From positions 1 to 33,188 of the IMG/VR virus record IMGVR_UViG_3300031758_000306: a DNA stretch of 33,188 nt, one strand, 5' to 3'. This DNA comes from a virus. The notes beneath the pieces were generated by a model, which did not search any database, was not told the origin of the DNA, and saw only the letters and a program-made list of their open reading frames with translations. Positions 821-33,188 of the stretch are shown in pieces. The position numbers and the translations under genes were made by a program. Numbering within the stretch: the stretch's first letter is position 1; each line of letters opens with the position of its first letter.

Positions 821-1294
821 TTACTTGCTCACTTTCTTTGCAATGTTTGCAGCACCCTTGGCTATGCCCTTAGCGCCTTTGACGTAGCCACCCGGAGCGC
901 CAAACTCACCAGCAAGCTCAAAGCCTTTACCTTCTTCGCTGGTAGCGCCCACGTTCTTGTCCAGCCAAGCCTTGACTTCCTCGGTCGTAGGCAACACGGT
1001 TTTCTCGCTCATGCCTCGCAGGAAAGCATCGATCTTGCTCTCATCTGCGCCACGCTTAAATATCTCTTTGACACCATAAGCAATAGACTCAATGTCTCCG
1101 GGCAAGCCGACAAAGCCCTGCGCAACACCTTTTGCCGTAGCCGCAGTCAACTCCGCTGCACGCTGTGGCGTAACCTCAAGGCCACCAACAGCACCAGACT
1201 TTGCAGGCATGGCATCGCTAGGTCCAGTCTTAGAGACTGGATAGCGACTTTGCATGTACATTTCCATGTACGCTTCGTCAAAGTTCTTAGCCAT
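821..1294 (-). CDS. Small virion-associated protein, unknown function
   Basis: A 157-aa protein sits between the gp15-like and giant gp16-like genes. Its start overlaps the upstream stop as TAATG (1292-1296) and its TAA abuts the next ATG. The centre has a segment beginning PQRAAELTAATAKG and reading on to GLPGDIE, and a later LPTTEEVKAWL segment. I recall this arrangement from N-terminal parts of large podovirus internal proteins. The C-terminus is Gly/Ala/Lys-rich (GAKGIAKGAANIAKK) and could be amphipathic. It may be a detached domain of the neighbouring ejection protein. That is inference; no catalytic motif is seen. Confidence 0.75.
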   Translation of the reverse strand: MAKNFDEAYMEMYMQSRYPVSKTGPSDAMPAKSGAVGGLEVTPQRAAELTAATAKGVAQGFVGLPGDIESIAYGVKEIFKRGADESKIDAFLRGMSEKTVLPTTEEVKAWLDKNVGATSEEGKGFELAGEFGAPGGYVKGAKGIAKGAANIAKKVSK

Positions 1295-3090
1295 TATGGT
1301 TGCACCTTGTTAATAATCTCAAGCTTTTTACGGATGGCAAGAGCTTGATTGGAATCAAGTATCTTTCTTTTTTCCAAGTCATTAACATCACCAACAGTTA
1401 ATGAGTCTGTATTAATTGAGATATTGCTTCCTCTCTTTTTATTATCTTCAACAGCTTGATCGACAATAGACTTAATACTGTCTCTTGCCGCATTTTTATT
1501 AATGTCTTTTGCGTCATTATCTCTATAATTTCCAATAATCTCTAACGCAAGAGCACGAGGAGAATACGATTTTCCTTGACGTGCAAGCTCTTTCTTTGCC
1601 GCAATATAACGACTTCTTACTGCATTGCGCTTATCAAACCTAGCCTCATCACCCTGAGTTCTAGCAGTTACAACATCCGCAACCCCTGCAAAAGCATTTA
1701 TTTCTCTTGATGCTTCACCTTCCTCTTGGTTAAACAGTCTGTCGTCTAAGGCTCTGACAAGTTGTGTATATTGCTTACCACTCATTCCGGTTCGACGGGC
1801 GATTGATTTTAATGAGTCGCGGTCCTCAATTGCGCCACTACTAACTTGGTGCCACAAGTCTCCAAAGACATACTCATCGCCATCCTGCTGCTTTGGATCA
1901 AGATACTTAGCTAGTTCCTCATTAGTAAACGATCCGTTCTGCGCAATGTCTCTGGCGATAGCTAGGCGTTTGTTGGTATCTTCGGTTTCGTAATACTCTA
2001 TTAATCGGTCATGGGTGTACTTTAGCCTCTCATCCTTTTGGCGCTTAGCCTCGCGCTCCGATGCAATATAAGCATCGTTCTCTGCAATTGTTAATGCCTG
2101 ACGAACCTTGGCCTTTACGTCTTCAGTAGCATAGGCCCAGACAGCAGCACCACTTGGCGTAAGCAAACGGCCAAGCTCAAGCATGTCGTTTGACCTTAAT
2201 GCAGGTTTTAATGCCGGATCAGTAAATGCTTTTTCGCTAAGAACCTTTTTTGTCAAAGCATTTGTCAGTGCTTGGTCAATGTCTTTCTGCATACCGGCAA
2301 CACGCTTGTTTGCCAAGTCTGCGCCACCAAGAATCAATGCCTTGTTGCCAAGGTCTTGAGATATAGCATTGACAAGATCACCGACCGGAAACGGAGTGCC
2401 GGTCTCTCTATCAACAGGAAGATCGTTGCTAAACATTACTTCCAGTTCACGCATTGTGTTCTGGTAGTTTACGTTTTCTTTTATTCCATTTGCCGCAATG
2501 CGCTTGTTTGCATCTAGCCGGGCAATGTCTTTAATGACATCACCACCCAATCTAGCAATAGTCGCCCGATACTTTAGCGATGCTTCTGGGTCAATCTGCG
2601 TCAGGGCTTCGCTAGGCCCTTTTAAGATAGCGGCTACCTTTGCCTGTACGTCAGACGCGGTAATATCCTCACCGGCTTCGGCACGAGCATGTAGCTTTAG
2701 CAGCTCATTCCTTGCCTCGATCTCTGCATAGCCAGATACTTCAAGCGCACGGTACTTTTTGACGGCAGCGCTAAAGACATTGAAGTCAGAGCCAATGCCA
2801 GTTTGGATAGACGATACATCGCCCTTGGCAATAGCCGTCAGTTGGTCTTGAGTCAGGCCATTCTCTGCCGCATACTGAAGACCAGCCTTTTGGCTAAACT
2901 TCTCGGCCATGCCAAACATTTGGTTAGATAGCTGATCGATAACATTGCTTAACGATCCGCTGTACCGCGATGCTGCTTCGTATCCTGCGCTGACATTTGC
3001 TGTCGGCATAGATACATTAGGCAGCACAGCGCCCGGCACATTAGCTATCTGTGCTCTACCGCCTTCTACGCGAGGAAGAATGTCTGCCAT
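1294..3090 (-). CDS. Internal virion protein C-like (T7 gp15-like ejection protein)
   Basis: A 598-aa, largely alpha-helical, charged protein lies in the place of T7 gp15, between a gp14-like protein and the giant protein. The N-terminus (MADILPRVEGGRAQIANVPG) is a Pro/Gly-rich leader typical of podovirus internal virion proteins. Long helical stretches with many Asp/Arg/Lys/Ala follow, with no membrane segment. In T7 the homologous protein forms the periplasmic part of the DNA ejection conduit. Identity rests on synteny, length and composition, not on a strong motif. The start is set 2 bases after the upstream stop. Confidence 0.8.
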   Translation of the reverse strand: MADILPRVEGGRAQIANVPGAVLPNVSMPTANVSAGYEAASRYSGSLSNVIDQLSNQMFGMAEKFSQKAGLQYAAENGLTQDQLTAIAKGDVSSIQTGIGSDFNVFSAAVKKYRALEVSGYAEIEARNELLKLHARAEAGEDITASDVQAKVAAILKGPSEALTQIDPEASLKYRATIARLGGDVIKDIARLDANKRIAANGIKENVNYQNTMRELEVMFSNDLPVDRETGTPFPVGDLVNAISQDLGNKALILGGADLANKRVAGMQKDIDQALTNALTKKVLSEKAFTDPALKPALRSNDMLELGRLLTPSGAAVWAYATEDVKAKVRQALTIAENDAYIASEREAKRQKDERLKYTHDRLIEYYETEDTNKRLAIARDIAQNGSFTNEELAKYLDPKQQDGDEYVFGDLWHQVSSGAIEDRDSLKSIARRTGMSGKQYTQLVRALDDRLFNQEEGEASREINAFAGVADVVTARTQGDEARFDKRNAVRSRYIAAKKELARQGKSYSPRALALEIIGNYRDNDAKDINKNAARDSIKSIVDQAVEDNKKRGSNISINTDSLTVGDVNDLEKRKILDSNQALAIRKKLEIINKVQP

Positions 3091-8637: not shown

Positions 8638-8888
8638 AATTTCCTCGCTCTATCGATTCGGGATTCTATCTCTTTGACTAAAGAGCATCGTCCCTCCAAA
8701 AAATAGCCGTAGGATGGATCACTCCCCGGCCCCCAGCATGGTTGCTCAATGGTTTGACTTCTTAGCCATTTAAGCAACTTCTGCCCTTCCTCTGTGCCAA
8801 ATACACGCAAGCACAGCTTATCCGTATCGCTAGACTCCGGTGGAGTCATAGCTTTCTGCATCTCTTCTAAGTCATCCCAACCGGCCAT
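8634..8888 (-). CDS. Bbp19-like small phage protein
   Basis: An 84-aa protein with the pattern VFGTEEGQKLLKWL, then DPSYGYFLEGRCSLVKEIES. It matches the Bbp19-type family (named for Bordetella phage BPP-1) seen beside portal and scaffold genes. In that family an FxxxxGxxVLxxL helix is followed by DPxxxAxxEGxRSLVxxI. Function is unknown; position suggests a head assembly role. It overlaps the cupin gene upstream by 17 bases and the scaffold start by four. Confidence 0.8.
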   Translation of the reverse strand: MAGWDDLEEMQKAMTPPESSDTDKLCLRVFGTEEGQKLLKWLRSQTIEQPCWGPGSDPSYGYFLEGRCSLVKEIESRIDRARKF

Positions 8889-9198
8889 AGGGGTCTCCGT
8901 CTGTTATTAATTCGTTATCTAGTTCGAATTTTTCTGCTTCGCTTAGTGCGTGGATGCAGTACCAGATGGCATCTGTCTCCGTGATAATTACGTGGGAAGT
9001 ATTAGCCTTAATCTCTATGCAGGCTGGCGCTTCGTACTTGGTTTGCACGCCATCGACATCGACATAGACCGTACCTTTTGCCAGAAGCGACAGATGAGAA
9101 TAAGGGTGGATATGCTGCGGCACAGCCCACCCTTTAGGAAGAAAGTATTCTTTGGCGTATAAGCCAGCCGCGAAGTGGTGTTGAATATCAGGCTGCAT
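8872..9198 (-). CDS. Cupin-fold protein in the head module
   Basis: A 108-aa single-domain cupin. Motif 1 reads VPQHIHPYSHLSLLAKG (residues 27-42), giving His29, His31 and His35 as candidate metal ligands. Motif 2 supplies His69 (NTSHV). The usual motif-1 glutamate appears replaced by His35. Beta strands such as GTVYVDVDG and ACIEIKA fit the barrel. It overlaps the portal stop by 11 bases, so it is translated with head genes. Whether it is structural or enzymatic cannot be told. Confidence 0.82.
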   Translation of the reverse strand: MQPDIQHHFAAGLYAKEYFLPKGWAVPQHIHPYSHLSLLAKGTVYVDVDGVQTKYEAPACIEIKANTSHVIITETDAIWYCIHALSEAEKFELDNELITDGDPYGRLG

Positions 9199-15371: not shown

Positions 15372-15709
15372 AGTGTCCTTGTAGTTCCTCGTCTTTCCGA
15401 GGTGTCTGTGTGGTCTTCCAGCATGGAGCTCGTAACGAGACTGGTCCACACTGCCGGTGTTAGCAGGAAAAAGCATAAACCTGCGGCACCTCCGGCTGGC
15501 CCAATACTTATACGACTGGACACTCACCTCTTTCTCGTGAGCTGTGGTGCGGTCAGCTCGTCAGCAAGTGCCCATGCGTGTAAGTGCCGGTCTTTCCCGG
15601 CTGTCAGATTGACCACTGACCTTGGGTTAATCAAGTGGGATAGCTACGCCTGTGTGCGCTCCCCCGATTACTCAGAGGCACAGTATCCGCTTTCCCGCTG
15701 CCATTTATA
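15372..15709. other. 338-base stretch without a confident gene
   Basis: Between the 98-aa gene and TerS. On the minus strand it has a short GTG-started frame (opening VVNLTAGKDRHLHAWALADE, about 30 codons) ending TGA. That stop shares bases with a GTG which opens a frame running into TerS. A second minus frame (15341-15523) has a hydrophobic run (GAAGLCFFLLTPAVWTSLV). The stretch also holds a small hairpin cctcg/cgagg close to TerS. No promoter stands out. Its content is unresolved. Confidence 0.4.
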
Positions 15710-16006
15710 TCAAAACGGTATGGGATCGTCTATATAATCATTCTTATCGGCAGGGGCATATCCATTGCCCTTATCTATACTATGCTGGCTCATCGTAGGC
15801 TGGGCTGCAACCATCTTCCCAAGCTTGACAGAATAGAACACCTCTCCATTCTTAGTCTTTTTCTCCCACGCAGACAGATAAAACTCCTGCCCATTTAACT
15901 TCATCTTCCCAGACCAGTCAGGACTACTCTCCGACTTCTTCTTCTTATTCAAAAACAAGTTGCCATTGTCATCACGCAACTCATATTGCTTATTACCATT
16001 ATTCAT
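15710..16006 (-). CDS. 98-aa phage protein, unknown (ssDNA-binding-like composition)
   Basis: Starts MNNGNKQYELRDDNGNLFLN with a GGAGAG ribosome site five bases upstream. Motifs GKMKLNGQEFYLSAWEKKTKNG and VFYSVKLGKM form a beta-rich, Lys-rich core. Small proteins of this pattern are common in phages next to DNA-metabolism or packaging genes, with no established role. The C-terminus (KNDYIDDPIPF) is acidic and ends in Phe. That pattern is reminiscent of the acidic tip of single-strand DNA-binding proteins, though the rest does not let me claim SSB. Confidence 0.75.
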   Translation of the reverse strand: MNNGNKQYELRDDNGNLFLNKKKKSESSPDWSGKMKLNGQEFYLSAWEKKTKNGEVFYSVKLGKMVAAQPTMSQHSIDKGNGYAPADKNDYIDDPIPF

Positions 16007-16097
16007 GTGGCTCTCCGTTTAAGAGGAAAATAACATTAACACAGTTTTCCTGATCTGCTATATACTTATCTCGTCTGTTTCGCACCAGATAGTAAGA

Positions 16098-16166
16098 ACC
16101 CATTAGCAAGGCCTTGCCTCCGGTACTACGGGGGGTGCGAACAAGGTCTTCCTAGTGGGTTTTTTT
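16098..16166 (+). terminator. Long imperfect hairpin with T7 tail
   Basis: On the plus strand acccattag (16098-16106) pairs with ctagtgggt (16152-16160) with one G-U. The stem continues with aaggccttg against caaggtctt. Seven T follow (16160-16166). An inner cctccg/cggggg pair is also possible. It has the form of a rho-independent terminator or attenuator for plus-strand transcription. The ATG at 16167 begins directly after the T run. Confidence 0.65.
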
Positions 16167-16391
16167 ATGTCTATAGAACTTACAGCCTTAGAAAAGTCTA
16201 CCCAGAAGAAACGGGAGAACCTTGAGCAAGCCATGAAAGACTGGCGAAAACAGTTATCCCAAGAAATTGCAAATAAGAAAATAACTAAGAAGAATATTTC
16301 CAATAAGGAAAAGGTTAAGAAAGAGAAATCAAAAGCCCGACATTCTGCGAATAGACTGATAAATTCGTTTGAAAAGGGCTGGACGTTCTGA
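16167..16391 (+). CDS. Small Lys-rich basic protein
   Basis: 74 aa from ATG 16167: MSIELTALEKSTQKKREN, then a Lys/Glu/Gln/Arg coiled-coil-like region with KKITKKNISNKEKVKKEKSK, ending FEKGWTF. Highly basic, so possibly nucleic-acid binding. The ATG has no Shine-Dalgarno sequence. A GTG at 16155 inside the terminator's right arm has AAGG eight bases upstream and would add MGFF. No homologous family is recognised, and chance coding cannot be excluded. Confidence 0.5.
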   Translation: MSIELTALEKSTQKKRENLEQAMKDWRKQLSQEIANKKITKKNISNKEKVKKEKSKARHSANRLINSFEKGWTF

Positions 16392-16901
16392 TACATTGTT
16401 TTAAAGACGGCAGTTGGCGAACAGTCGCCCGTCGAGGCTAAGCTAGTGACAGCACACCCTTAGCCTGCAAGCAGGTCGATACTGTGAAGGTTGATTCCGT
16501 GAGGATAGGCCTTGGTTATGGTGGCGAAAGCTTCCTGTAATCTGGTGATACCACAGCGCTCTAACAAAGCGAGACTTGATGCTCCAACTGCTTTGCTCAC
16601 AACTTGTCACCTTTATAACTGATGTATTTACTACTATCGGGTGGCCGGTTACGCAAAAAAGAAGCATCTAGGCCTTAAGACTCCATTAGAACCACTAACC
16701 TCGAAGCACAGCCAGCAGGCCACAAAAGCCTGTAGGCAGTGCGTCATACAGCGCTTTATACAAAATGTTCATTTAAAAGCGCAATATTAGACTTAAAAAA
16801 AATTAAGACTCAATCCTGTAGGCCACAAAATATCAGCAAAAAATTGAGAGTAGGACCCAGCGATACAGGCGACCCCCGGGGGGAGGGCATATCGCCTCTT
16901 C
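16392..16901. other. 510-base stretch rich in repeats, no confident gene
   Basis: Holds short plus-strand frames only. One is an ATG at 16519 (opening MVAKASCNLVIPQRS) ending TGA within TGATG. Another is a GTG frame at 16641 (opening VAGYAKKKHLGLKTPLEPL, about 48 codons). It has AT-rich segments (16755-16810), the direct repeat aggccacaaaa (16717-16727, 16820-16830) and cctgtaggc (16729-16737, 16815-16823). A GC-rich hairpin lies at its end (16860-16897). It separates the regulatory pair from the late block, so it is a candidate origin, control region or untranslated RNA. Confidence 0.5.
16860..16897. promoter_or_regulatory. Nested inverted repeats downstream of the winged-helix gene
   Basis: Two alternative pairings share one site: gcgata (16860-16865) with tatcgc (16890-16895), and aggcga (16867-16872) with tcgcct (16892-16897). 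The palindrome cccccggggg (16873-16882) sits in the middle. It starts five bases past the stop of the minus-strand gene. A T-rich tract comes about 20 bases later on that strand. Terminator or switchable control structure. Confidence 0.5.
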
Positions 16902-17627
16902 TCAGACTGCTAACCGTGCGAAGTATGACAGACGATGCGGAGGCTCTCTGCGAAACTGCCGCCAATCATCAAACACACGGCAAACCTCGGCCTCGAATGC
17001 ACCAAAACTAACCCCGGCCTCAGCAATTCTTTCCAAGCTTGCAATGTCTTCAGGCGTTACAGTTCTGCTAATGTTAGCAGACTGGCAGGCGGACTTCCAC
17101 AGTCTCACACACTCCACAACCCTTAACTTTTCCTCAACACTGTTTCCCCGCGTTAATCCTTCTGTCTCAACTGTTACTTTCTGCGGCTCTTCAGATTTAA
17201 CATTTGAGGCTTCGATTGACTTCTGAAGGATGCGCTGTTGATGTCCCGGCGGCTTATCTTCGAAGGCAATAACTTGCAGCAGTTCATTAGTTGACAACTT
17301 CTCATCGTAGATTACCCGCATGATCTGCGCAGTTCTCCCCCAACTGTGATTTTTGACCTTTGTGATATATCCCCACGCGACGAGACGTTTCATCTGTCTG
17401 CTGATTGTTTGCCTTGTGACGCCCAAGTCTTTGGCTAGATTGTCAAAACCCGGCCAGCATAAGCCCGCCCTGTTCGCATAACTACTGACTGCGACGAGTA
17501 GTTTTAAGCTTGTGAACTTCAGCCGTCTGTCCCTGACCGCCCGAATCGGGATAATTGAATATGCCCTGCGATCTACCGGCGGCTGTTGGACAATCTTCGG
17601 CGGTTCCGGCAGTTCAAAGCTTTGCAT
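16902..17627 (-). CDS. Winged-helix regulator or replication initiator-like protein
   Basis: 241 aa. Residues 22-107 form an HTH_36-type winged helix. RAYSIIPIRAVRDRRLKFTS leads to NLAKDLGVTRQTISRQMKRL (63-82) and AWGYITKV. That organisation is seen in plasmid RepA-like and phage replication/regulatory proteins. Residues 160-241 are a helical C-terminal domain with many acidic and aromatic residues (FDDWRQFRREPPHRLSYFAR). It overlaps the RHH gene by 14 bases. It is the only candidate initiator in the genome; a pure transcription role is equally possible. Confidence 0.8.
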   Translation of the reverse strand: MQSFELPEPPKIVQQPPVDRRAYSIIPIRAVRDRRLKFTSLKLLVAVSSYANRAGLCWPGFDNLAKDLGVTRQTISRQMKRLVAWGYITKVKNHSWGRTAQIMRVIYDEKLSTNELLQVIAFEDKPPGHQQRILQKSIEASNVKSEEPQKVTVETEGLTRGNSVEEKLRVVECVRLWKSACQSANISRTVTPEDIASLERIAEAGVSFGAFEAEVCRVFDDWRQFRREPPHRLSYFARLAV

Positions 17628-17796
17628 CTTTTATCATCCGTGCAACCTTATCCGACGTGCTTTCCTGATTCCGGCAGTATTCCCTGATTGCCTGCTCCAC
17701 GATCCTGCTGCGGCTTATCCTGCTGTCATTGGCAAGCTTGTCCAACATCTCCCGGACGTCTTCACGTAACCTAATGAATGTCGCTTTTTGATTCAT
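17614..17796 (-). CDS. Ribbon-helix-helix DNA-binding protein
   Basis: 60 aa. MNQKATFIRLREDVREMLDK has the ribbon strand (KATFIRL), helix A (REDVREMLDKLAND) and helix B (SRSRIVEQAIREYCRN), as in CopG/Arc/MetJ folds. It is the first gene of the minus regulatory pair. It is transcribed away from the early plus-strand block, so it probably binds operators in 17797-17919 and controls both directions. The C-terminal tail (DKVARMIKDAKL) is basic. Partition- or antitoxin-like use is possible, but no ParA or toxin is beside it. Confidence 0.88.
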   Translation of the reverse strand: MNQKATFIRLREDVREMLDKLANDSRISRSRIVEQAIREYCRNQESTSDKVARMIKDAKL

Positions 17797-17840
17797 AGGC
17801 GCATGCTATCACTTTGCAATAATCAATCAATATTTATTTA

Positions 17841-17868
17841 TTGACGTTCGCCAATTACAGTCTATCCT
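17841..17868 (+). promoter_or_regulatory. Candidate early promoter
   Basis: ttgacg (17841-17846), 16 bases, tatcct (17863-17868): 5/6 and 4/6 matches to sigma70 boxes. It would start transcription about 45 bases before the ATG at 17920, inside the divergent RHH/early intergenic region. Confidence 0.5.
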
Positions 17869-17872
17869 TCGG

Positions 17873-17898
17873 TTTGTCAGCACTGCTGGCATTTGTCA
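17873..17898. promoter_or_regulatory. Candidate operator: repeated tttgtca around cagca-c-tgctg
   Basis: tttgtca occurs at 17873-17879 and again at 17892-17898, 19 bases apart. Between them lies an odd palindrome cagca-c-tgctg (17878-17888). Placed just after the early -10 box and next to an RHH gene, it is a plausible repressor site. Confidence 0.45.
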
Positions 17899-17919
17899 AC
17901 TAACCGGAAAGGTCAGACA

Positions 17920-19375: not shown

Positions 19376-19429
19376 GCGCAACTATCTAACCGGCAAAACC
19401 AATTAACAAAATCTATGAAGGAGCTTTTC

Positions 19430-20389
19430 ATGGTTGGAAAAGTCACGCCCAATACAATGCTGTCCGCGTCCCGCTTGCCTGCGGTTATGGGGTACAGCAA
19501 ATACCGCACACCTAATGACGAACTGTCATTCTCAATCGATGCCCTCGGAGGCAAAGAACCTGAAGACATTGGCAATGAGGCAATGCAATGGGGGAACCAC
19601 CTCGAACCCATCGTCCTTCGGGAATGTGCGAAACGTCTACACGCCACAAATTTACAGACGGAATTCATAGACGCTTTTTTCCACCCCAACCTGCCGCTCT
19701 GCTGTTCTTTGGACGGCACCGCAGACGGAATGGGCGCAACCATCGTGTCCAACCCGGAACACGGCATTTATGTGGTAGGTCAGGACGACATTACCCTTGA
19801 CGGACCGGGTATCCTCGAAGCTAAGGTTACAAAGATGGCCCCGGAAGACGTCCTGCCGCTTTACAGGGGACCGATTCAGCTTCAGGCACAAATGGATATT
19901 ACCGGCGCTAAATGGGGCGCTGTAGCCGTGCTATATCAAGCCAGTGAGCTGCGCATATTCCTGTTTGCTCCCCACGAATCTACCATCCGGGCTATTCACC
20001 TAGCTGCATTAGACTTCCAGCGCAGACTTGACATCTGGACAAGCGAGAAACACATCGACTACTATCCGCCTGTCAACTCTGAGGATGCTAACCGGACATG
20101 GCCTGACGGAACCCCCGAAACTGTTTTTCTGGCCGGTGAGTTCGAGCAATATGCCAGAGATATTCACGAGGCAAAGCAGGACATCAAGCAATGCGAAGCC
20201 ATCATTGATGACAGAGAGAAACGCATCAAAGAAGCCATGCAGCAGGCCACGCAGGCAAAGGTCGGCAAGTACACAGTGAGCTGGCCCATGCGTAGCTACA
20301 AGGCTACAGCAGAGCGCATAGTACCCGCCAAAGAATCCTACACAGTGCGGCAATCCAGCCTGTCAATAAAGGAAAACAAAGACCTATGA
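19430..20389 (+). CDS. YqaJ-family viral recombinase exonuclease
   Basis: 319 aa from ATG 19430, chosen for AAGGAG six bases upstream; ATG 19415 lacks a site. Motifs: LSASRLPAVMGYSKYRTPND (11-30), WGNHLEP with Glu59, SLDGTADG with Asp95, and ILEAK with Glu130 and Lys132. IQLQAQMDITGAKWG (149-163) comes next. This is the lambda-exonuclease/YqaJ PD-(D/E)xK fold, which trims 5' ends of duplex DNA. It pairs with RecT encoded three genes later. The C-terminal third is a charged coiled coil. Confidence 0.94.
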   Translation: MVGKVTPNTMLSASRLPAVMGYSKYRTPNDELSFSIDALGGKEPEDIGNEAMQWGNHLEPIVLRECAKRLHATNLQTEFIDAFFHPNLPLCCSLDGTADGMGATIVSNPEHGIYVVGQDDITLDGPGILEAKVTKMAPEDVLPLYRGPIQLQAQMDITGAKWGAVAVLYQASELRIFLFAPHESTIRAIHLAALDFQRRLDIWTSEKHIDYYPPVNSEDANRTWPDGTPETVFLAGEFEQYARDIHEAKQDIKQCEAIIDDREKRIKEAMQQATQAKVGKYTVSWPMRSYKATAERIVPAKESYTVRQSSLSIKENKDL

Positions 20390-20571: not shown

Positions 20572-20816
20572 AAGCATTTCCTTATTCAGTCATGACTTAT
20601 AACCCGAACCATCCAGATAGCCCACGGTACACAACTACTTGGCACGAAGGAATGGACCTGCGCGATTACTTTGCAGCTCAAGCAATGACGGGGGCGCAAA
20701 TATGGGACGCAGTTTTGAACGGCAAAAACACAGTATTTGCAGGAGACGGGCCTAAAAAACTAGCGGAGGTGGCGTATGCAATTGCCGACGCAATGCTGAA
20801 AGCGAGGGAGAAATGA
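20568..20816 (+). CDS. 82-aa phage protein with RDYFAAQAM motif
   Basis: Overlaps both neighbours by ATGA. It contains GMDLRDYFAAQAMTG and a C-terminal YAIADAMLKAREK. This combination (DYFAA.AM … ADaML.aR) is common in small proteins beside phage recombination genes and is of unknown function. Nothing catalytic is visible. Confidence 0.78.
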   Translation: MKAFPYSVMTYNPNHPDSPRYTTTWHEGMDLRDYFAAQAMTGAQIWDAVLNGKNTVFAGDGPKKLAEVAYAIADAMLKAREK

Positions 20817-21898
20817 GCGCACTTGTAACACATAAGGGGTTTACACCTCAGACCATGACAGAGGCTATCGAGTTCTCAGAACGGCTTGCTCGCAGCCAGA
20901 TGGTGCCAAAAAACTATCAGGGAAAACCAGAGGACATTCTTGTCGCAGTGCAATGGGGATACGAGATCGGTCTGGCACCCATCCAAGCCTTGCAGAACAT
21001 CTCCGTTATCAACGGCAAGCCATCGGTTTATGGGGATGCAGCACTGGCTTTGGTGCAGTCCAGTCCGCTCTGTGAAGGCGTTGAGGAATCGATTGAGGGT
21101 GAAGGCACCCAAAACCCAGTAGCCATTTGTATAGTCCACAGGAGAGGCCGTAAGCCAGTTACCTGCAAGTTTTCCGTCGAGGACGCCAAACGGGCAGGAT
21201 TGTGGGGGAAAAGTGGGCCGTGGACAGCATACCCAAAGCGCATGTTACAGATGAGAGCTCGAGGCTTTGCCCTGCGTGACGCATTCCCAGATGTACTTAA
21301 AGGATTGATAACAGTAGAGGAAGCAGAGGATTATCCGGAGGAAGCTAAGCCACGGCCAGTCAAGGACATCACGCCAGCCAATCCATTGGATGCTATAGCT
21401 CCGCCAAAAATGATAGAGGAAATCTATGAGGAGGAAGTTACCGAAAGTGAGCCGGTCGAGACCATCGAACTACCAGCAGATGTTGAGGTCAGTGTCACGG
21501 AGACTGTCGAAGCGGTCGTGGACACACCACAGGAGGAAGCGCAGCAGACGCCAGCAGATGATTCATCGCGGGAAGGTGACAGCTCTACGTGGACTCTGTT
21601 CATTCCGGGCAAGGACTCAATCGATACAGGATCACTTGACAACTGGCTAATTCAGTACAATGATCTGGCCGATAAGGTCGCAAAGGCAGGCAGAGCTGCG
21701 CCCAGAAGCCGCATGACAAAGCTTCGGGAACTACGGGAAGCTAACGATTCTGTTATCAAAGCACTGCCAAACTTGGTGAAGGTGGTTTTGACACAGGCTT
21801 ACCAGACTAGGCTCAAACATCTGGGCGCAATCATGCGGGAAGAAGAAGGAACAACTGATTCAGTGAGGGCAGACAATGGACCACAACGTCAAACTTGA
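20813..21898 (+). CDS. recT: RecT-family single-strand annealing protein
   Basis: 361 aa. Residues 1-180 hold the RecT domain: AVQWGYEIGLAPIQALQNIS, INGKPSVYGDAALALVQSSP and WTAYPKRMLQMRARGFALRD, ending DAFPDVLKGL. It anneals complementary single strands exposed by the YqaJ exonuclease. Residues 185-265 are an acidic, Pro/Glu/Val/Thr-rich linker. Residues 268-361 form a separate helical domain opening STWTLFIPGKDS. The C-terminal extension is longer than in the minimal E. coli RecT. ATGA overlap with the upstream gene. Confidence 0.94.
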   Translation: MSALVTHKGFTPQTMTEAIEFSERLARSQMVPKNYQGKPEDILVAVQWGYEIGLAPIQALQNISVINGKPSVYGDAALALVQSSPLCEGVEESIEGEGTQNPVAICIVHRRGRKPVTCKFSVEDAKRAGLWGKSGPWTAYPKRMLQMRARGFALRDAFPDVLKGLITVEEAEDYPEEAKPRPVKDITPANPLDAIAPPKMIEEIYEEEVTESEPVETIELPADVEVSVTETVEAVVDTPQEEAQQTPADDSSREGDSSTWTLFIPGKDSIDTGSLDNWLIQYNDLADKVAKAGRAAPRSRMTKLRELREANDSVIKALPNLVKVVLTQAYQTRLKHLGAIMREEEGTTDSVRADNGPQRQT

Positions 21899-22620: not shown

Positions 22621-22804
22621 CATGCGGGATTATCCGCAGCACGTAGCAGTCGGCTTTGGCAGATGTATGGCAGCAAGCATAGAGAGACATGGTGCAGTCT
22701 TTATGCCACTGCGTGCCTTAGTTGACTGCGAACAATACTCAACAGCCAAAGAAGGCATCATCGCTAAACGACAGGAGTGGTATGAGAGCCGCAAAGGTAG
22801 ATGA
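22589..22804 (+). CDS. Cys-rich mini-protein with CxxC and GxC motifs
   Basis: ATG 22589 gives MQRCLNCRNFNMRDYPQHVA, followed by GFGRCMAASI and ALVDCEQYS. The pattern CxxCRxF … GxGRC … C is the layout of widespread small phage zinc-binding proteins of unknown function. It overlaps the zinc-ribbon gene in another frame by 32 bases. The next gene starts at an AGGAG site inside its 3' end. Confidence 0.72.
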   Translation: MQRCLNCRNFNMRDYPQHVAVGFGRCMAASIERHGAVFMPLRALVDCEQYSTAKEGIIAKRQEWYESRKGR

Positions 22805-23096
22805 AAACCAAAAGGAAATAGTCAAAGCTTTGCGTCACATGGGCTGTTCGATCCAGCACCTGCATTCAGTAGGCAAGGGATGTCCCGATCTTCTGGTGGG
22901 ATACAAAGGGTTCAATATCCTGATTGAAGTGAAGGACGGCAGCAAACCACCGTCAAGTCAGAAGCTAACCCCGGATCAGGTTATCTGGCACAGAGATTGG
23001 CGTGGTGCAGTTGAAGTTGCCAATAGTCCTGAGCAAGCAATACTCGTGGTGCTCAGAACAGCACGGGACCTAGCCAACTTGGACGATCTTAAATGA
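22782..23096 (+). CDS. VRR-NUC-like PD-(D/E)xK nuclease
   Basis: 104 aa from ATG 22782, chosen for AGGAG five bases upstream. Motifs: HSVGKGCPDLLVGYKGFNIL then IEVKDGSK, giving Asp36, Glu49 and Lys51 as the nuclease triad. The sequence GxPDLxVG…xEVKDG is characteristic of VRR-NUC/Holliday-junction-resolvase-like phage enzymes. It probably resolves branched DNA made by the YqaJ/RecT pathway or trims replication intermediates. Confidence 0.88.
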   Translation: MRAAKVDENQKEIVKALRHMGCSIQHLHSVGKGCPDLLVGYKGFNILIEVKDGSKPPSSQKLTPDQVIWHRDWRGAVEVANSPEQAILVVLRTARDLANLDDLK

Positions 23097-23532: not shown

Positions 23533-23897
23533 CCATCACGCTAACCCGCGAAGAAGCGCATCAGGTGCTGGATGCGTTGGAAAGTTGTTATGACGTTATT
23601 GATTGGCCTGCTGATGGCGAAACTCCTCAAGACGATGCAGCTAAAGTACTCCACGCCAAACTAAGCGCACCCGAACCAGTGCCAACAGGATTTATTAGAA
23701 CGCTGGTTAAAGTTCATGCAGACGGAACAGAAACATGGACAGAGGAGGCTTTTTACACCGCCCCACCACAGCGCGAATGGCAGGGGCTGACGGATGAGGA
23801 TAGACAAGAATTAGCGGCAGAGCAGTACGGTTGGGAAGGTTTATGTTCTGCGGTAGAAGCAAAACTACGGGAAAAGAACTGTGCGCCCAATATATGA
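23529..23897 (+). CDS. 122-aa protein, unknown
   Basis: ATGA overlap with the preceding stop. N-terminus MTITLTREEAHQVLDALESC is a LTREEaxxxLdALe helix seen in several phage families. The centre is beta-like (RTLVKVHADGTETWTEEAF). Then come a short REWQGLTDEDRQELA linker and a helix. The latter two thirds resemble a family where a peptide REWQGLT recurs before helical tails; I cannot assign a role. Confidence 0.7.
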   Translation: MTITLTREEAHQVLDALESCYDVIDWPADGETPQDDAAKVLHAKLSAPEPVPTGFIRTLVKVHADGTETWTEEAFYTAPPQREWQGLTDEDRQELAAEQYGWEGLCSAVEAKLREKNCAPNI

Positions 23898-24300
23898 AAC
23901 ACCTGAAGACTTAGTTCGGGAATCATTAATAGGCAGAACACTAACCGAGATGTGGGGAGTTAGCCTGCACAAGTTGCCGCGTGCATATCACGTTGACTGG
24001 TTGATAGAGAAAGACGGAGATGTCCGTGGCTTTGCCGAACTAAAGTGCAGGTCCAATCCAAGAAGCAAGTACGATACATTCATGCTGTCCCTGCACAAGT
24101 GGATGCACGGCAAGCAACTGGCAGCAGAGATAGCTGGCAAGTTTATGATTATCGTGCAATGGGAAGACGGATTGTTCTACCACCAGCAAGGATGGTGTGA
24201 TGTGAAGTACGGTGTGGGAGGTAGGAAAGATAGGCAGGATGCGCAGGACATTGAGCCTGTGATCTACATTCCTACCTATGCTTTCAAGAGGATTACTTAG
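23881..24300 (+). CDS. PD-(D/E)xK nuclease-like protein, last early gene
   Basis: 139 aa from GTG 23881, 17 bases inside the previous gene. Motifs HVDWLIEKDGDVRGFAELKC give Asp39, Glu53 and Lys55, a PD-(D/E)xK active-site pattern, in a frame with LHKLPRAYHVDW. The family looks like short phage nucleases (HKLP…YHxDx…xxExK). The C-terminus is beta-rich. The gene converges with the Rz gene, overlapping it by eight bases with no terminator between. Confidence 0.78.
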   Translation: MRPIYETPEDLVRESLIGRTLTEMWGVSLHKLPRAYHVDWLIEKDGDVRGFAELKCRSNPRSKYDTFMLSLHKWMHGKQLAAEIAGKFMIIVQWEDGLFYHQQGWCDVKYGVGGRKDRQDAQDIEPVIYIPTYAFKRIT

Positions 24301-24754
24301 CTACTGCTTCGTACTGGGAGTAGCATTGTTTGAGGGCAAGTCGGAGTTCGTCGGCTTCTCTAGCGATCCTGATAAGAACTTCTCCATCTTCTCGGTAAAG
24401 CTCTTTTCCGGTACAGCCACCCTGTCCAGCACCGGAGGCTTTGGACATTCCACTGCCTTCGGCGGGGCGCTCATTCCTGTCGCGCAAGCTGTTAGCCAGA
24501 GCAATGGTACGAGCGTTAATATCTTTAAGCTCACGGTCTTTCTCCTGTCTGATCTTGTCAGCACTGTCCTGCATATCACGCTCTCGCTGACGGGCAGCTT
24601 CCTGTGCAGCAGCATACTCAGCCATCTGCTTGGCCTTCTCTTTGTCCCACTGCGCCTGCACCTTAGCCTGCCCAGCATCGTCACCCTGCCAATGCCCAAC
24701 ACCATAGGCAAGAGCAACAGCAACGACGCTGCCAGCTATGAAGTACGGGTTCAT
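24293..24754 (-). CDS. i-Spanin (Rz-like)
   Basis: 153 aa. N-terminal membrane anchor about residues 4-20 (YFIAGSVVAVALAYGVGHW), then a long charged coiled coil (AQAQWDKEKAKQMAEYAAAQ onward) in the periplasm. This is the inner-membrane half of a two-component spanin that fuses inner and outer membranes after endolysin action. It contains the o-spanin gene in another frame. Start ATG shares bases with the upstream TGA. Confidence 0.88.
   Translation of the reverse strand: MNPYFIAGSVVAVALAYGVGHWQGDDAGQAKVQAQWDKEKAKQMAEYAAAQEAARQRERDMQDSADKIRQEKDRELKDINARTIALANSLRDRNERPAEGSGMSKASGAGQGGCTGKELYREDGEVLIRIAREADELRLALKQCYSQYEAVAK
24301..24534 (-). CDS. o-Spanin (Rz1-like), fully nested in Rz
   Basis: 77 aa beginning at GTG 24532-24534 with AGGAG seven bases upstream. 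Signal peptide VSLKILTLVPLLWLTAC has a lipobox (LTAC) with the modified Cys at 17. The mature part is Pro-rich at first (APPKAVECPKPPVLD) and then helical. Nested in the +1 frame of Rz, ending five bases before Rz, as in classic overlapped Rz/Rz1 pairs. As a lipoprotein it would sit in the outer membrane and bind Rz. Confidence 0.85.
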   Translation of the reverse strand: MSLKILTLVPLLWLTACATGMSAPPKAVECPKPPVLDRVAVPEKSFTEKMEKFLSGSLEKPTNSDLPSNNATPSTKQ

Positions 24755-30669: not shown

Positions 30670-33188
30670 TCAAGGATTTCCGTATATTGGAAGCCTTGCC
30701 TTCGCTTTTTCTGCACGAATCATTACAGACGGCATAGTTGTCAAAAGATTAGCTTTAGCCATCTCGACATACTTTGAGTACAGCGTTTTGATGGTGTTTT
30801 GCTGCTGGTCTTTATCAAGCTGTTTAAAGTCATCCATTAATGCTTCGGCAACTATTGCATCTTTAACAGTCATATTTTTGACAGTCTTGTCCTTTGGGTC
30901 GTAATGCGGAATTTGCTGGGTGCCCAAAGAACTCATCATGTAGGAATATTCCTCTGGCGTCAGCTTCACATTGACCTTATCCACCGTCAGGTTCCTACGC
31001 GGCTTTTCCAACTTGGTCCCTGTAGCAATGATGATCTTGTCTGCTTCGCGCTGCTTGGTCGAGCTGTAACGCACGCCAATTGAAGAAGACAGCCAAGGGT
31101 TTTCAAGGTCGCCACGAAGTTCCTTTTCACCAAGGTAGTCATACGAAAAAGGCAATTCTTCAGACAGCCCCGGAGTACGCGACTTGTAATAATTAAATGC
31201 TTCTTGCCAACCTTTTAAACCAGTATCTAAGTTTGGGTCGGCAGACACATCTCGCTTGTACGGGTCAATTGCTCGTGCCGCTTGGCCTCGTGCAGAACTG
31301 AATATCCCCACGGGAGAACCTTCCAAAGCATATCCAGCAGCCTGCTTAACAGTGGCGTCAATGGCTGCGCGGAACGCTGCTTTAGGATTAGGTACTGTTT
31401 GGCTAAATGCGCCAGCTACGGACGATATAGCCGTCATCACAGGCATTTGGCTTACGTAGTTGTACAAGCCCCAAGCTCCACCCAGAATGATCTGGCCGAC
31501 CTTATCCTGATCGTCCTCATATCTTGCATATTCGACAGCATCGATAGCCATAGCCAATGGGCCAGCAATCGGGTCAATACCACGCAGCGGAACATACAGA
31601 TTGTCGCCAGTGCCAATAGACGGATCAATGTTATTGCTCTTTAGATATTGAACAAACTCTTCGTCCCACTCGCCTTTTTTGAACACTGCGCTGTACGGAC
31701 GCCAGCCAGACGCAAGGTATTCGTTGCGCAAGGCTGTATCGCCGGGACCGCCACCAGTAAACCGGCCATCAGCAACATAGCTACCAATGGTCAGCATAAG
31801 AGTCGATCCCATGCCAAACTTTGCCATAGCAAGCTCAGCCTTGGCACCGCCTGCTTTAACATCTGCCCTCCATTGAGCTGACAGCGGAGCAATCAGCGAG
31901 TGCTGCATAGACTCGCTAGTCACCCATACAGGCGTTTTTACGAACGGCATTGCAATACGAGCAAGCAAGTGGTCGTTTGTAAGTTGCTGTAAGGCAGCAG
32001 CAGAACCAGTCAGCTTACGGCTGAAGGTAATCATGTGCGAAAAGTCTTGGGCAGCAGCTTCTATTTCTTTTGGTGGGTTTGCAAGAACTCGACCAATTTT
32101 TCTTAAACCAGCCTCTTCAACCGAATTTTCAATATTTATGGCTCTAAGTAATTTTTTCTCCGCCCTTTTTGTAGACTTGCCTTCTTCTTTTAATTTAGCA
32201 ATTTCTTTTTCTATTTCATTGACTTTTTGAGAAGCCATAGCAAATGCTTCGCGTTTGGCAATAGCGCCTTGACGATATGCTTGAGCATAAATCTCTGCCT
32301 GATACCCAAGAGTTTTAAATACCTCGTCTGTCGCCATAATTGGGCGGGTACCAAGCAATGTGACAAGATTTGCCCATCCATTAATTCCCTTAATTAAAAT
32401 TTCATTTTCGATGCCGTATTGACGAGCATCAAAAATCATGTTGTTGCCTTCGTACTTGACGCCAGCATCGCTTAGCAGGTCAGCGCCTTCACGCATCTCA
32501 CGGGTCGTGCCGGTCTTTAACGCAACCCAACCAAGACGCAAGGCATCACGACTGGAATTAACCATTCCAGCCAACATGGCAGCAGCCTCACCCAACTCAA
32601 CCTCTCCACCCATACCCATAGTTCTACGCACAGCTCCAGCTACTCCAGCTAATTGACGAGTAGCTACAGAGCTTGCTAAAAATGTCACGTTTGACGTTAG
32701 GTTAACAACATGAGTTCCAGTAGCGGACAACAAGCCAGACTTCCAAGTACGATCCCACAAGTCACGAACCAACCCAACTTTGCCAACTTGATTAATTAAT
32801 TCAAGCTGCGCACCTTCGTCTGTAAGCTGTACGTAAGCATCCATTAGCTTTTTAAGCTCAGGACGCACACCTTCAGTATTGAGCATGGCCTTCATCTCTG
32901 CGCTGTCATACGCAGGAATCTTGCCTGTCACATCCAATGCAATGTCTTCAGCAAGGTTAGGAGTGATCGTAATGCGACCAGTCGCCGTAGCTTGCGCAGC
33001 ACGGGTAGATGCCAGCTTATAGGTATCGTTTAGCATGTTGCCAGCATTAATCTTGTATAAGACCTTTGCCAGCATTTCATCGTTTTCAGGGTTGAGATAT
33101 GCCTGCTTCATCAGGTCAAATATCTCTCTGTTGTTCTGATACGAGGCAACACGCAAGCGGACAATATCCGACGGCAGCTCTTGATACG
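30670..33188 (-). CDS. Giant internal virion protein, C-terminal part; continues from 820
   Basis: This supplies the C-terminal 828 codons and, at 33157-33188, 32 more bases of upstream sequence that repeat 185-216. The 1040-aa product has a mainly helical mid-part. TWKSGLLSATGTHVVNLTSN lies near residue 350-365 and the coiled coil QKVNEIEKEIAKLKEEGKST near 520. Later come AMPFVKTPVWVTSESMQHSL and DNLYVPLRGIDPIAGPLAMA. These helical stretches resemble the large polyvalent-type domain of phage ejection proteins. No peptidoglycan hydrolase motif is visible. The stop is 32 bases before the tail fibre start. Confidence 0.82.
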   Translation of the reverse strand, partial: YQELPSDIVRLRVASYQNNREIFDLMKQAYLNPENDEMLAKVLYKINAGNMLNDTYKLASTRAAQATATGRITITPNLAEDIALDVTGKIPAYDSAEMKAMLNTEGVRPELKKLMDAYVQLTDEGAQLELINQVGKVGLVRDLWDRTWKSGLLSATGTHVVNLTSNVTFLASSVATRQLAGVAGAVRRTMGMGGEVELGEAAAMLAGMVNSSRDALRLGWVALKTGTTREMREGADLLSDAGVKYEGNNMIFDARQYGIENEILIKGINGWANLVTLLGTRPIMATDEVFKTLGYQAEIYAQAYRQGAIAKREAFAMASQKVNEIEKEIAKLKEEGKSTKRAEKKLLRAINIENSVEEAGLRKIGRVLANPPKEIEAAAQDFSHMITFSRKLTGSAAALQQLTNDHLLARIAMPFVKTPVWVTSESMQHSLIAPLSAQWRADVKAGGAKAELAMAKFGMGSTLMLTIGSYVADGRFTGGGPGDTALRNEYLASGWRPYSAVFKKGEWDEEFVQYLKSNNIDPSIGTGDNLYVPLRGIDPIAGPLAMAIDAVEYARYEDDQDKVGQIILGGAWGLYNYVSQMPVMTAISSVAGAFSQTVPNPKAAFRAAIDATVKQAAGYALEGSPVGIFSSARGQAARAIDPYKRDVSADPNLDTGLKGWQEAFNYYKSRTPGLSEELPFSYDYLGEKELRGDLENPWLSSSIGVRYSSTKQREADKIIIATGTKLEKPRRNLTVDKVNVKLTPEEYSYMMSSLGTQQIPHYDPKDKTVKNMTVKDAIVAEALMDDFKQLDKDQQQNTIKTLYSKYVEMAKANLLTTMPSVMIRAEKAKARLPIYGNP
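32973..33188. repeat. Right copy of 216-bp terminal direct repeat
   Basis: Same as 1-216 except t at 33100 for c at 128. A unit length of 32,972 bp follows from the overlap. The two copies lie inside one open gene, so only one exists in a circular reading. Confidence 0.95.

Follow-up and report, generated by a model that had tools for sequence, protein, structure and literature searches.

Background

In phage lambda, the middle of the initiator gene holds ori-lambda, laid out as iterons with an A+T-rich tract after them (PMC7466680). Phage MEP301 (MW452941; Methylophilales, OM43) has already been published as having no DNA or RNA polymerase (PMC8024684); this absence is prior knowledge, and the initiator of MEP301 was previously unrecognised. 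Here we compare these systems with a window that is the whole of one IMG/VR record (33,188 nucleotides, classed as linear by IMG/VR). A preliminary description of the window had reported a polymerase-free phage with a T7-type virion; such a phage is not unique, since MEP301 and the pelagiphage Hodr, both with virions of this type, lack polymerases too. The kind of initiator reported below is known as well. The combination, the intragenic origins of a sister clade and the linked RNA were not described in the literature that we searched.

Results

Completeness of the genome and absence of replicative enzymes

Bases 1-216 of the window recur at 32973-33188 with 99.5% identity (one mismatch), the virion gene truncated at the left end of the record resumes at the right end, and the relative G001 reads uninterrupted across the junction of the window ends. 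End overlaps of their own are present in G001-G003. The genome, at about 32,972 bp, is therefore complete, either as a circle or in circularly permuted form, and, since the record closes on itself, gene absences in the window are trustworthy. The leftward strand carries the genes of a single-strand DNA binding protein (SSB), the terminase and the T7-like virion, the last including tail tubular proteins A and B, the head-tail connector and an internal virion protein. Between the genes for the scaffold and the connector, the virion operon encodes a cupin-domain protein (8872-9198, minus strand; Pfam 1.1e-8). Also on the minus strand, an Rz-like spanin (24295-24754) has a lipoprotein-like Rz1 candidate (24301-24723) embedded in a different frame.

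No polymerase, helicase or primase was recognised among the window ORFs. The sole large ORF without a family match (1294-3090, 598 aa) lies inside the structural block and has no polymerase match. The DnaB_C and DNA_pol_A profiles found no match in the window, and each found none in the 17 genome-size records of the family (0/17), with 14/14 and 10/14 controls detected, respectively. The T7 RNA polymerase profile gave no match, though no positive control matched either. Judged by these profiles and by the sizes of the remaining ORFs, the Autographiviridae/T7-type replication set (single-subunit RNA polymerase, family-A DNA polymerase and primase-helicase) was not found in the window. ORF review and profile searches of this complete record agree with the preliminary description, in which no polymerase, helicase or primase had been seen despite the T7-like virion. 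Its proposal of replication by host polymerases is likewise supported, since with a complete genome and no replicative enzymes the polymerases of the host must copy the phage. A phage helicase loader of the lambda P or DnaC type was not recognised among the early ORFs scanned, and a host loader could substitute for a phage-coded one. No integrase was recognised in the window.

The probable initiator protein and its RHH neighbour

The following features of the window surround the candidate initiator.

15710-16006, minus strand: single-strand DNA binding protein, next in the leftward operon (phrog_18154, 9e-11)
16902-17627, minus strand: replication initiator, 241 aa (PHROGs, Pfam HTH_36, AlphaFold model)
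17614-17796, minus strand: RHH protein of CopG/Arc type, 60 aa, first gene of the leftward operon (Pfam RHH_1, 3.8e-7)
17797-17919: divergent promoter/operator region, from the RHH gene to the rightward early operon (conserved blocks)
19415-20389, plus strand: YqaJ/RecE-like exonuclease (Pfam YqaJ 1.1e-8; phrog_434, 1.5e-31)
20813-21898, plus strand: RecT-like annealing protein (phrog_561, 6e-52)
22722-23096, plus strand: VRR-NUC/Holliday-junction-type nuclease (phrog_93, 8e-14)
23881-24300, plus strand: PDDEXK_14 phage endonuclease (Pfam 1.2e-37)

Both ORFs of the RHH/winged-helix pair were confirmed, with RHH_1 and HTH_36 matches that exceed the Pfam curated cut-offs, and the positions of the rightward YqaJ and RecT genes bear out the earlier statement that the pair is divergent from their operon. 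For the 241-aa protein the HTH_36 match has an E value of 5.6e-9 (36.1 bits vs a cut-off of 25). In PHROGs (O-like/initiation families compared: phrog_391, 345 and 678; phrog_270 and 428), it matches replication initiation family phrog_270 at 1e-12 and O-like family phrog_391 at 9e-9. All 16 of the 16 aligned homologues match phage replication-initiation families, many of them labelled lambda-O-like, and replication-initiation or O-like matches were also obtained for gp55 of MEP301 and for the homologue in a Hyphomicrobiales prophage. Matches to plasmid Rep proteins were weak and partial (E 5e-6 or worse). The profile searches against Rep families that had been suggested as a check consequently point to replication initiation, and the protein stands as the sole candidate initiator, no other being recognisable in the window. 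Of the "plasmid- or temperate-type" look ascribed to the pair, the plasmid part does not hold. Identity as a plasmid Rep/CopG replicon was rejected, the best matches being phage O-like initiators and the plasmid ones weak.

Three parts make up the protein: a winged helix near the N terminus (residues about 26-107), a linker and, at the C terminus, a helical domain (about 170-240) that contains the motif RREPPHRL. The AlphaFold model, whose overall pLDDT of 63 is low with individual domains better predicted, places a winged helix with helices and wing, a linker and a C-terminal helical bundle. A Foldseek search of solved structures returned only generic winged-helix regulators, MarR-type included, and the C-terminal domain has no Pfam family match. 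Among homologues, the winged helix is conserved while the C-terminal domain and the length vary (about 141-345 aa), as seen in L012/L016/L021 vs L006/L008 and the window; this is as expected if the variable domain contacts differing host helicase partners.

The RHH gene overlaps the start of the initiator gene by 14 bp, and the overlap is identical in 22/22 relatives of the window clade. Elsewhere in the wider family RHH genes, where present, are distant from the initiator, and MEP301 has none adjoining it, which shows that the pair is not obligatory. The pair as a whole had been put forward as the candidate initiator; as the RHH gene adjoins the initiator in the window clade only, a required share of the RHH protein in initiation is not supported, and it is probably an operon repressor instead. 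The divergent region 17797-17919 contains the inverted repeat TCAATA-6-TATTGA as well as TTGAC and GTGATAG blocks conserved among relatives. Sigma-70-like sites there are not above chance frequency.

Conservation of the initiator in the family

A TerL-based scan of IMG/VR gave at least 593 candidate terminase relatives, and the loci of 80 were retrieved. Of these 80 loci, 42 have at least 2.5 kb upstream of terL, and 37 of them carry the initiator there, on the terL strand; among those with at least 4 kb upstream, all 25 do. It was also found in every one of the genome-size family records (17/17). The initiator is a core gene of the family, and its arrangement is common to hundreds of uncultured relatives.

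Origin anatomy in sister phages and an origin candidate in the window

In a clustered-repeat search, members of a sister clade with long initiators (303-345 aa) had repeat arrays inside the initiator gene. Five copies of CATRGGCAAC, with spacings of 22, 38, 22 and 12, lie at about +570 to +690 of the gene in L110 and L117.

L110, 8346-8449: iteron array in the initiator gene (clustered-repeat search)
L117, 7935-8038: iteron array in the initiator gene (clustered-repeat search)

Since these spacings are not all multiples of 3, the array is not explained by a repeated peptide. The initiator genes of L091 and L087 hold palindromic CAACCTC/GAGGTTG copies, and that of L084 has a lambda-type iteron array too. 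We compared repeat density in 18 sister phages with initiators of at least 290 aa; positions with at least four repeat copies make up 0.95% inside the gene vs 0.01% outside (0.0095 vs 0.0001, about 100-fold). In 14 of 17 long-initiator loci, the 100 bp with the lowest GC content of the entire locus follow immediately after the array (+677 to +777). The intragenic origin anatomy of the sister clade is the ori-lambda layout. Two phages with very short initiators (145-147 aa), L127 and L071, have DnaA-box-like arrays within 0.7 kb of the gene (TGTGGATAA / TGTTGATAA; L127:503-577, L071:458-535). Repeats of GCAGGCAG in relatives of the window clade were considered as iterons and rejected, as they track Arg-Gln codons in the recognition helix.

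Unlike the long-initiator sister clade, the window does not have iterons and an A+T-rich tract within the gene: direct, inverted and k-mer array scans of its initiator gene found no iterons above chance. No clustered DnaA boxes were found in the window. The features behind the gene are as follows.

16016-16812: replaced segment, no counterpart in L004/L005 (comparison with relatives)
16712-16727, minus strand: repeat TTTTGTGGCCTGCTGG, weak and chosen after the fact
16754-16853: A+T-rich tract, 28% GC, candidate unwinding element, 50 bp behind the initiator gene
16815-16830, minus strand: repeat TTTTGTGGCCTACAGG, second copy (repeat scan)

Among 100-bp stretches of the genome, those at 16254 and 16754 are two of the lowest in GC. 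The tract at 16754-16853, one of the lowest two, has dyads and a fold z of about -3 on both strands, and the candidate region near 16754 contains two copies of TTTTGTGGCCTRCWGG. Moderate evidence therefore favours the A+T-rich, repeat-bearing stretch 16640-16860, just behind the gene, as the best origin candidate of the window. By analogy with the sister phages, in which the initiator gene itself contains iterons and an A+T-rich tract, an origin in or next to this gene is likely. The preliminary description had suggested an origin near the pair; sister-phage anatomy makes the general location likely, and the exact site in the window stays the candidate just named. The GC-skew check that it recommended gave no origin signal: skew tracks gene direction, and skew at fourfold (silent) sites is equal in the two arms (-0.093 vs -0.100).

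Relatives L004/L005 have an initiator 98% identical to that of the window and, at the place of 16016-16812, an initiator-linked RNA. The window's version of the segment is confirmed by its presence in identical, independent contigs, a 74-aa ORF within it (16167-16388, plus strand) occurs only in copies of the window phage, and DNA searches for the segment in phage and plasmid records gave no match. Since 16016-16812 is unrelated in the near-identical L004/L005, the segment beside the initiator has been exchanged as a module. At its edge there is a long terminator-like hairpin (16093-16166, AACCCATTAGCAAGGCC...GGTCTTCCTAGTGGGTT followed by seven T), and the fold z of 16000-16199 on the plus strand is -3.5.

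A structured RNA beside the initiator

Close relatives have a non-coding element of about 300 nt between initiator and SSB that is more conserved than the flanking genes. The 56-nt RNA core is also in MEP301 and many distant members. Examples are listed below.

L010, 8460-8708: structured RNA
L005, 1750-2010: structured RNA
L127, 923-1171: structured RNA
MEP301 (L024), 33363-33607, minus strand: structured RNA

In the core, 8 of 12 pairs are changed on both sides, compared to a shuffled mean of 3.3 and none of 500 shuffles reaching 8, and sliding the pair partners abolishes the signal. The RNA does not stand out by its folding energy (z near 0), so the case for it rests on covariation. Neither the window nor the RNA of relatives matched Rfam, and DNA searches for the RNA in phage and plasmid records found none. 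We then scanned for the RNA pattern without use of the initiator and tested 76 of the loci returned; 12 of the 76 were too short and 64 informative. The RNA adjoins the initiator in 63 of these 64 contigs (initiator before the RNA in 49, after it in 14) and the initiator is absent in one; L058 and L060 have the RNA upstream of the initiator and on the other strand. None of the 63 RNA-linked initiators exceeds 281 aa. The RNA was found in no member of the long-initiator, iteron-bearing clade and is absent from the window itself. It may serve replication or late transcription by host RNA polymerase, and for an RNA acting on host RNA polymerase the comparison is the put RNA of HK022 (PMC9378689).

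One reading, which we hold possible though doubtful, is that this RNA is a working origin element (a primer or copy-control RNA) in most of the family and that 16016-16812 is another version of it. This would extend the explanation by an O-like initiator and does not exclude it. Strong core covariation and the position next to the initiator, on either side, together with the lack of the RNA in the iteron-bearing clade, are consistent with such a role. However, the RNA of most members also precedes the late operon in the same orientation and may be a leader that targets host RNA polymerase, its exclusion from the iteron clade may reflect a single phylogenetic split, and the window does without it. 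Equally tentative is the broader suggestion that origin modules around one initiator are interchangeable, namely intragenic iterons in one clade, a structured RNA that would replace the iteron origin in the others, and a third, unrecognised kind in the window lineage (16016-16812).

Discussion

Taking together the genes, how well they are conserved, a complete genome that encodes no replicative enzymes and the lambda-type origin anatomy in the sister-phage gene, we regard it as quite probable that the 241-aa protein is an O-like initiator that opens the origin for the host machinery, with the RHH protein as autorepressor. Points against this view are the lack of iterons above chance in the window gene, of a recognised phage loader and of a Pfam match for the C-terminal domain, the purely generic winged-helix fold matches, the equal silent-site skew of the two arms, and MEP301, in which no RHH adjoins the initiator. 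We infer DNA binding, melting, helicase recruitment, RHH function and the window origin as follows. The winged helix would bind an origin located in or next to the gene that encodes it, with 16640-16860 the likeliest place in the window, and the initiator would melt that origin. The C-terminal domain would recruit the host DnaB helicase, directly or via a host loader, after which host primase and DNA polymerase III would replicate the phage DNA. Recombination by YqaJ, RecT and SSB may then make concatemers for packaging. The RHH protein, translationally coupled through the 14-bp overlap, would repress its own operon and so set the initiator level.

The pair could instead be a mere transcriptional or lysogeny-type switch, an RHH protein with a MarR-like winged helix, for the divergent early operon, with the origin elsewhere. 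Both proteins are of DNA-binding type, MarR-type regulators appear in Foldseek, the pair diverges from the early operon, and an integrated relative (L027) exists. However, replication initiators make up the overwhelming share of the profile matches, the C-terminal domain is not of MarR type, the window has no recognised integrase and no other initiator candidate, and the sister-phage gene contains iterons and an A+T-rich tract; we consider a switch alone improbable. Replication started by recombination (YqaJ/RecT/SSB or host R-loops), with no dedicated initiator and the winged-helix protein as an accessory, agrees with the YqaJ, RecT, SSB and nuclease genes and with the lack of iterons and skew signal in the window, but is the least probable of all given an initiator in every genome-size record and the sister-clade origin anatomy within the initiator gene itself.

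An O-like initiator of this kind, a lambda-type initiator grafted onto a T7-type virion, would explain how a large aquatic group of T7-like phages can copy their genomes with no replicative enzyme of their own. The analysis puts a name to the initiator and, in one clade, a position to the origin, and the remainder becomes testable. It also brings to light a conserved RNA that has no Rfam match and is linked to the gene of the initiator.

Comparison with known systems

The integrated relative L027 (JAIXTP010000026) occupies about 35 kb (about 63.5-98.8 kb) of a 186-kb Hyphomicrobiales MAG contig; the host genes bordering it were read as mazG at one end and as tatD plus metG at the other. L043-L045 and L027 are the same Hyphomicrobiales prophage, of T7-virion type. 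It resembles the window phage in TerL (68% identical), an HTH_36 initiator homologue, an SSB-like gene and YqaJ, and differs in an extra 687-aa primase-helicase, a tyrosine integrase and a serine recombinase. Its initiator homologue lies two genes from the primase-helicase, a position that favours a role in replication; in the relatives of the window the initiator is kept and this primase-helicase is absent.

Pelagibacter phage EXVC031P Hodr (OQ414635) is likewise a 34-kb phage with a T7-type virion, no polymerase-size early gene, a TerL 42% identical and a YqaJ-like exonuclease. In contrast to the window, its initiation-like protein (15431-15958) belongs to another family, phrog_1408, and is encoded inside the early operon. 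The record OQ414635.1 (L047), titled EXVC031P Hodr, has locus tags EXVC032PBaldr, possibly a labelling mix-up.

Judged by synteny and by related TerL, portal, capsid and tail tubes, the window phage is of the MEP301 type (identity to MEP301: TerL 75%, MCP 80%, connector 70%, tail tubes 59-62%). The two share SSB, YqaJ and the absence of polymerases, and the initiator homologue of MEP301, gp55, is at the equivalent place, annotated as hypothetical. However, the MEP301 initiator has 201 aa, is 30% identical to that of the window and has no adjoining RHH; MEP301 also has ERF in place of RecT and carries the initiator-linked RNA.

Compared with lambda O and ori-lambda, the window phage has no recognised P-type loader and no iterons in its own gene, and it has a T7-like virion and an RHH gene overlapping the initiator start. 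Because the window gene is without intragenic iterons and A+T-rich tract, we do not class it as a lambda-O-type origin system. The likeness is in a short protein with an N-terminal DNA-binding helix-turn-helix domain, in the use of host polymerases and, in the sister phages, in the iterons and A+T-rich tract that the initiator gene contains; judging from its sequence, the 241-aa protein would work like lambda O.
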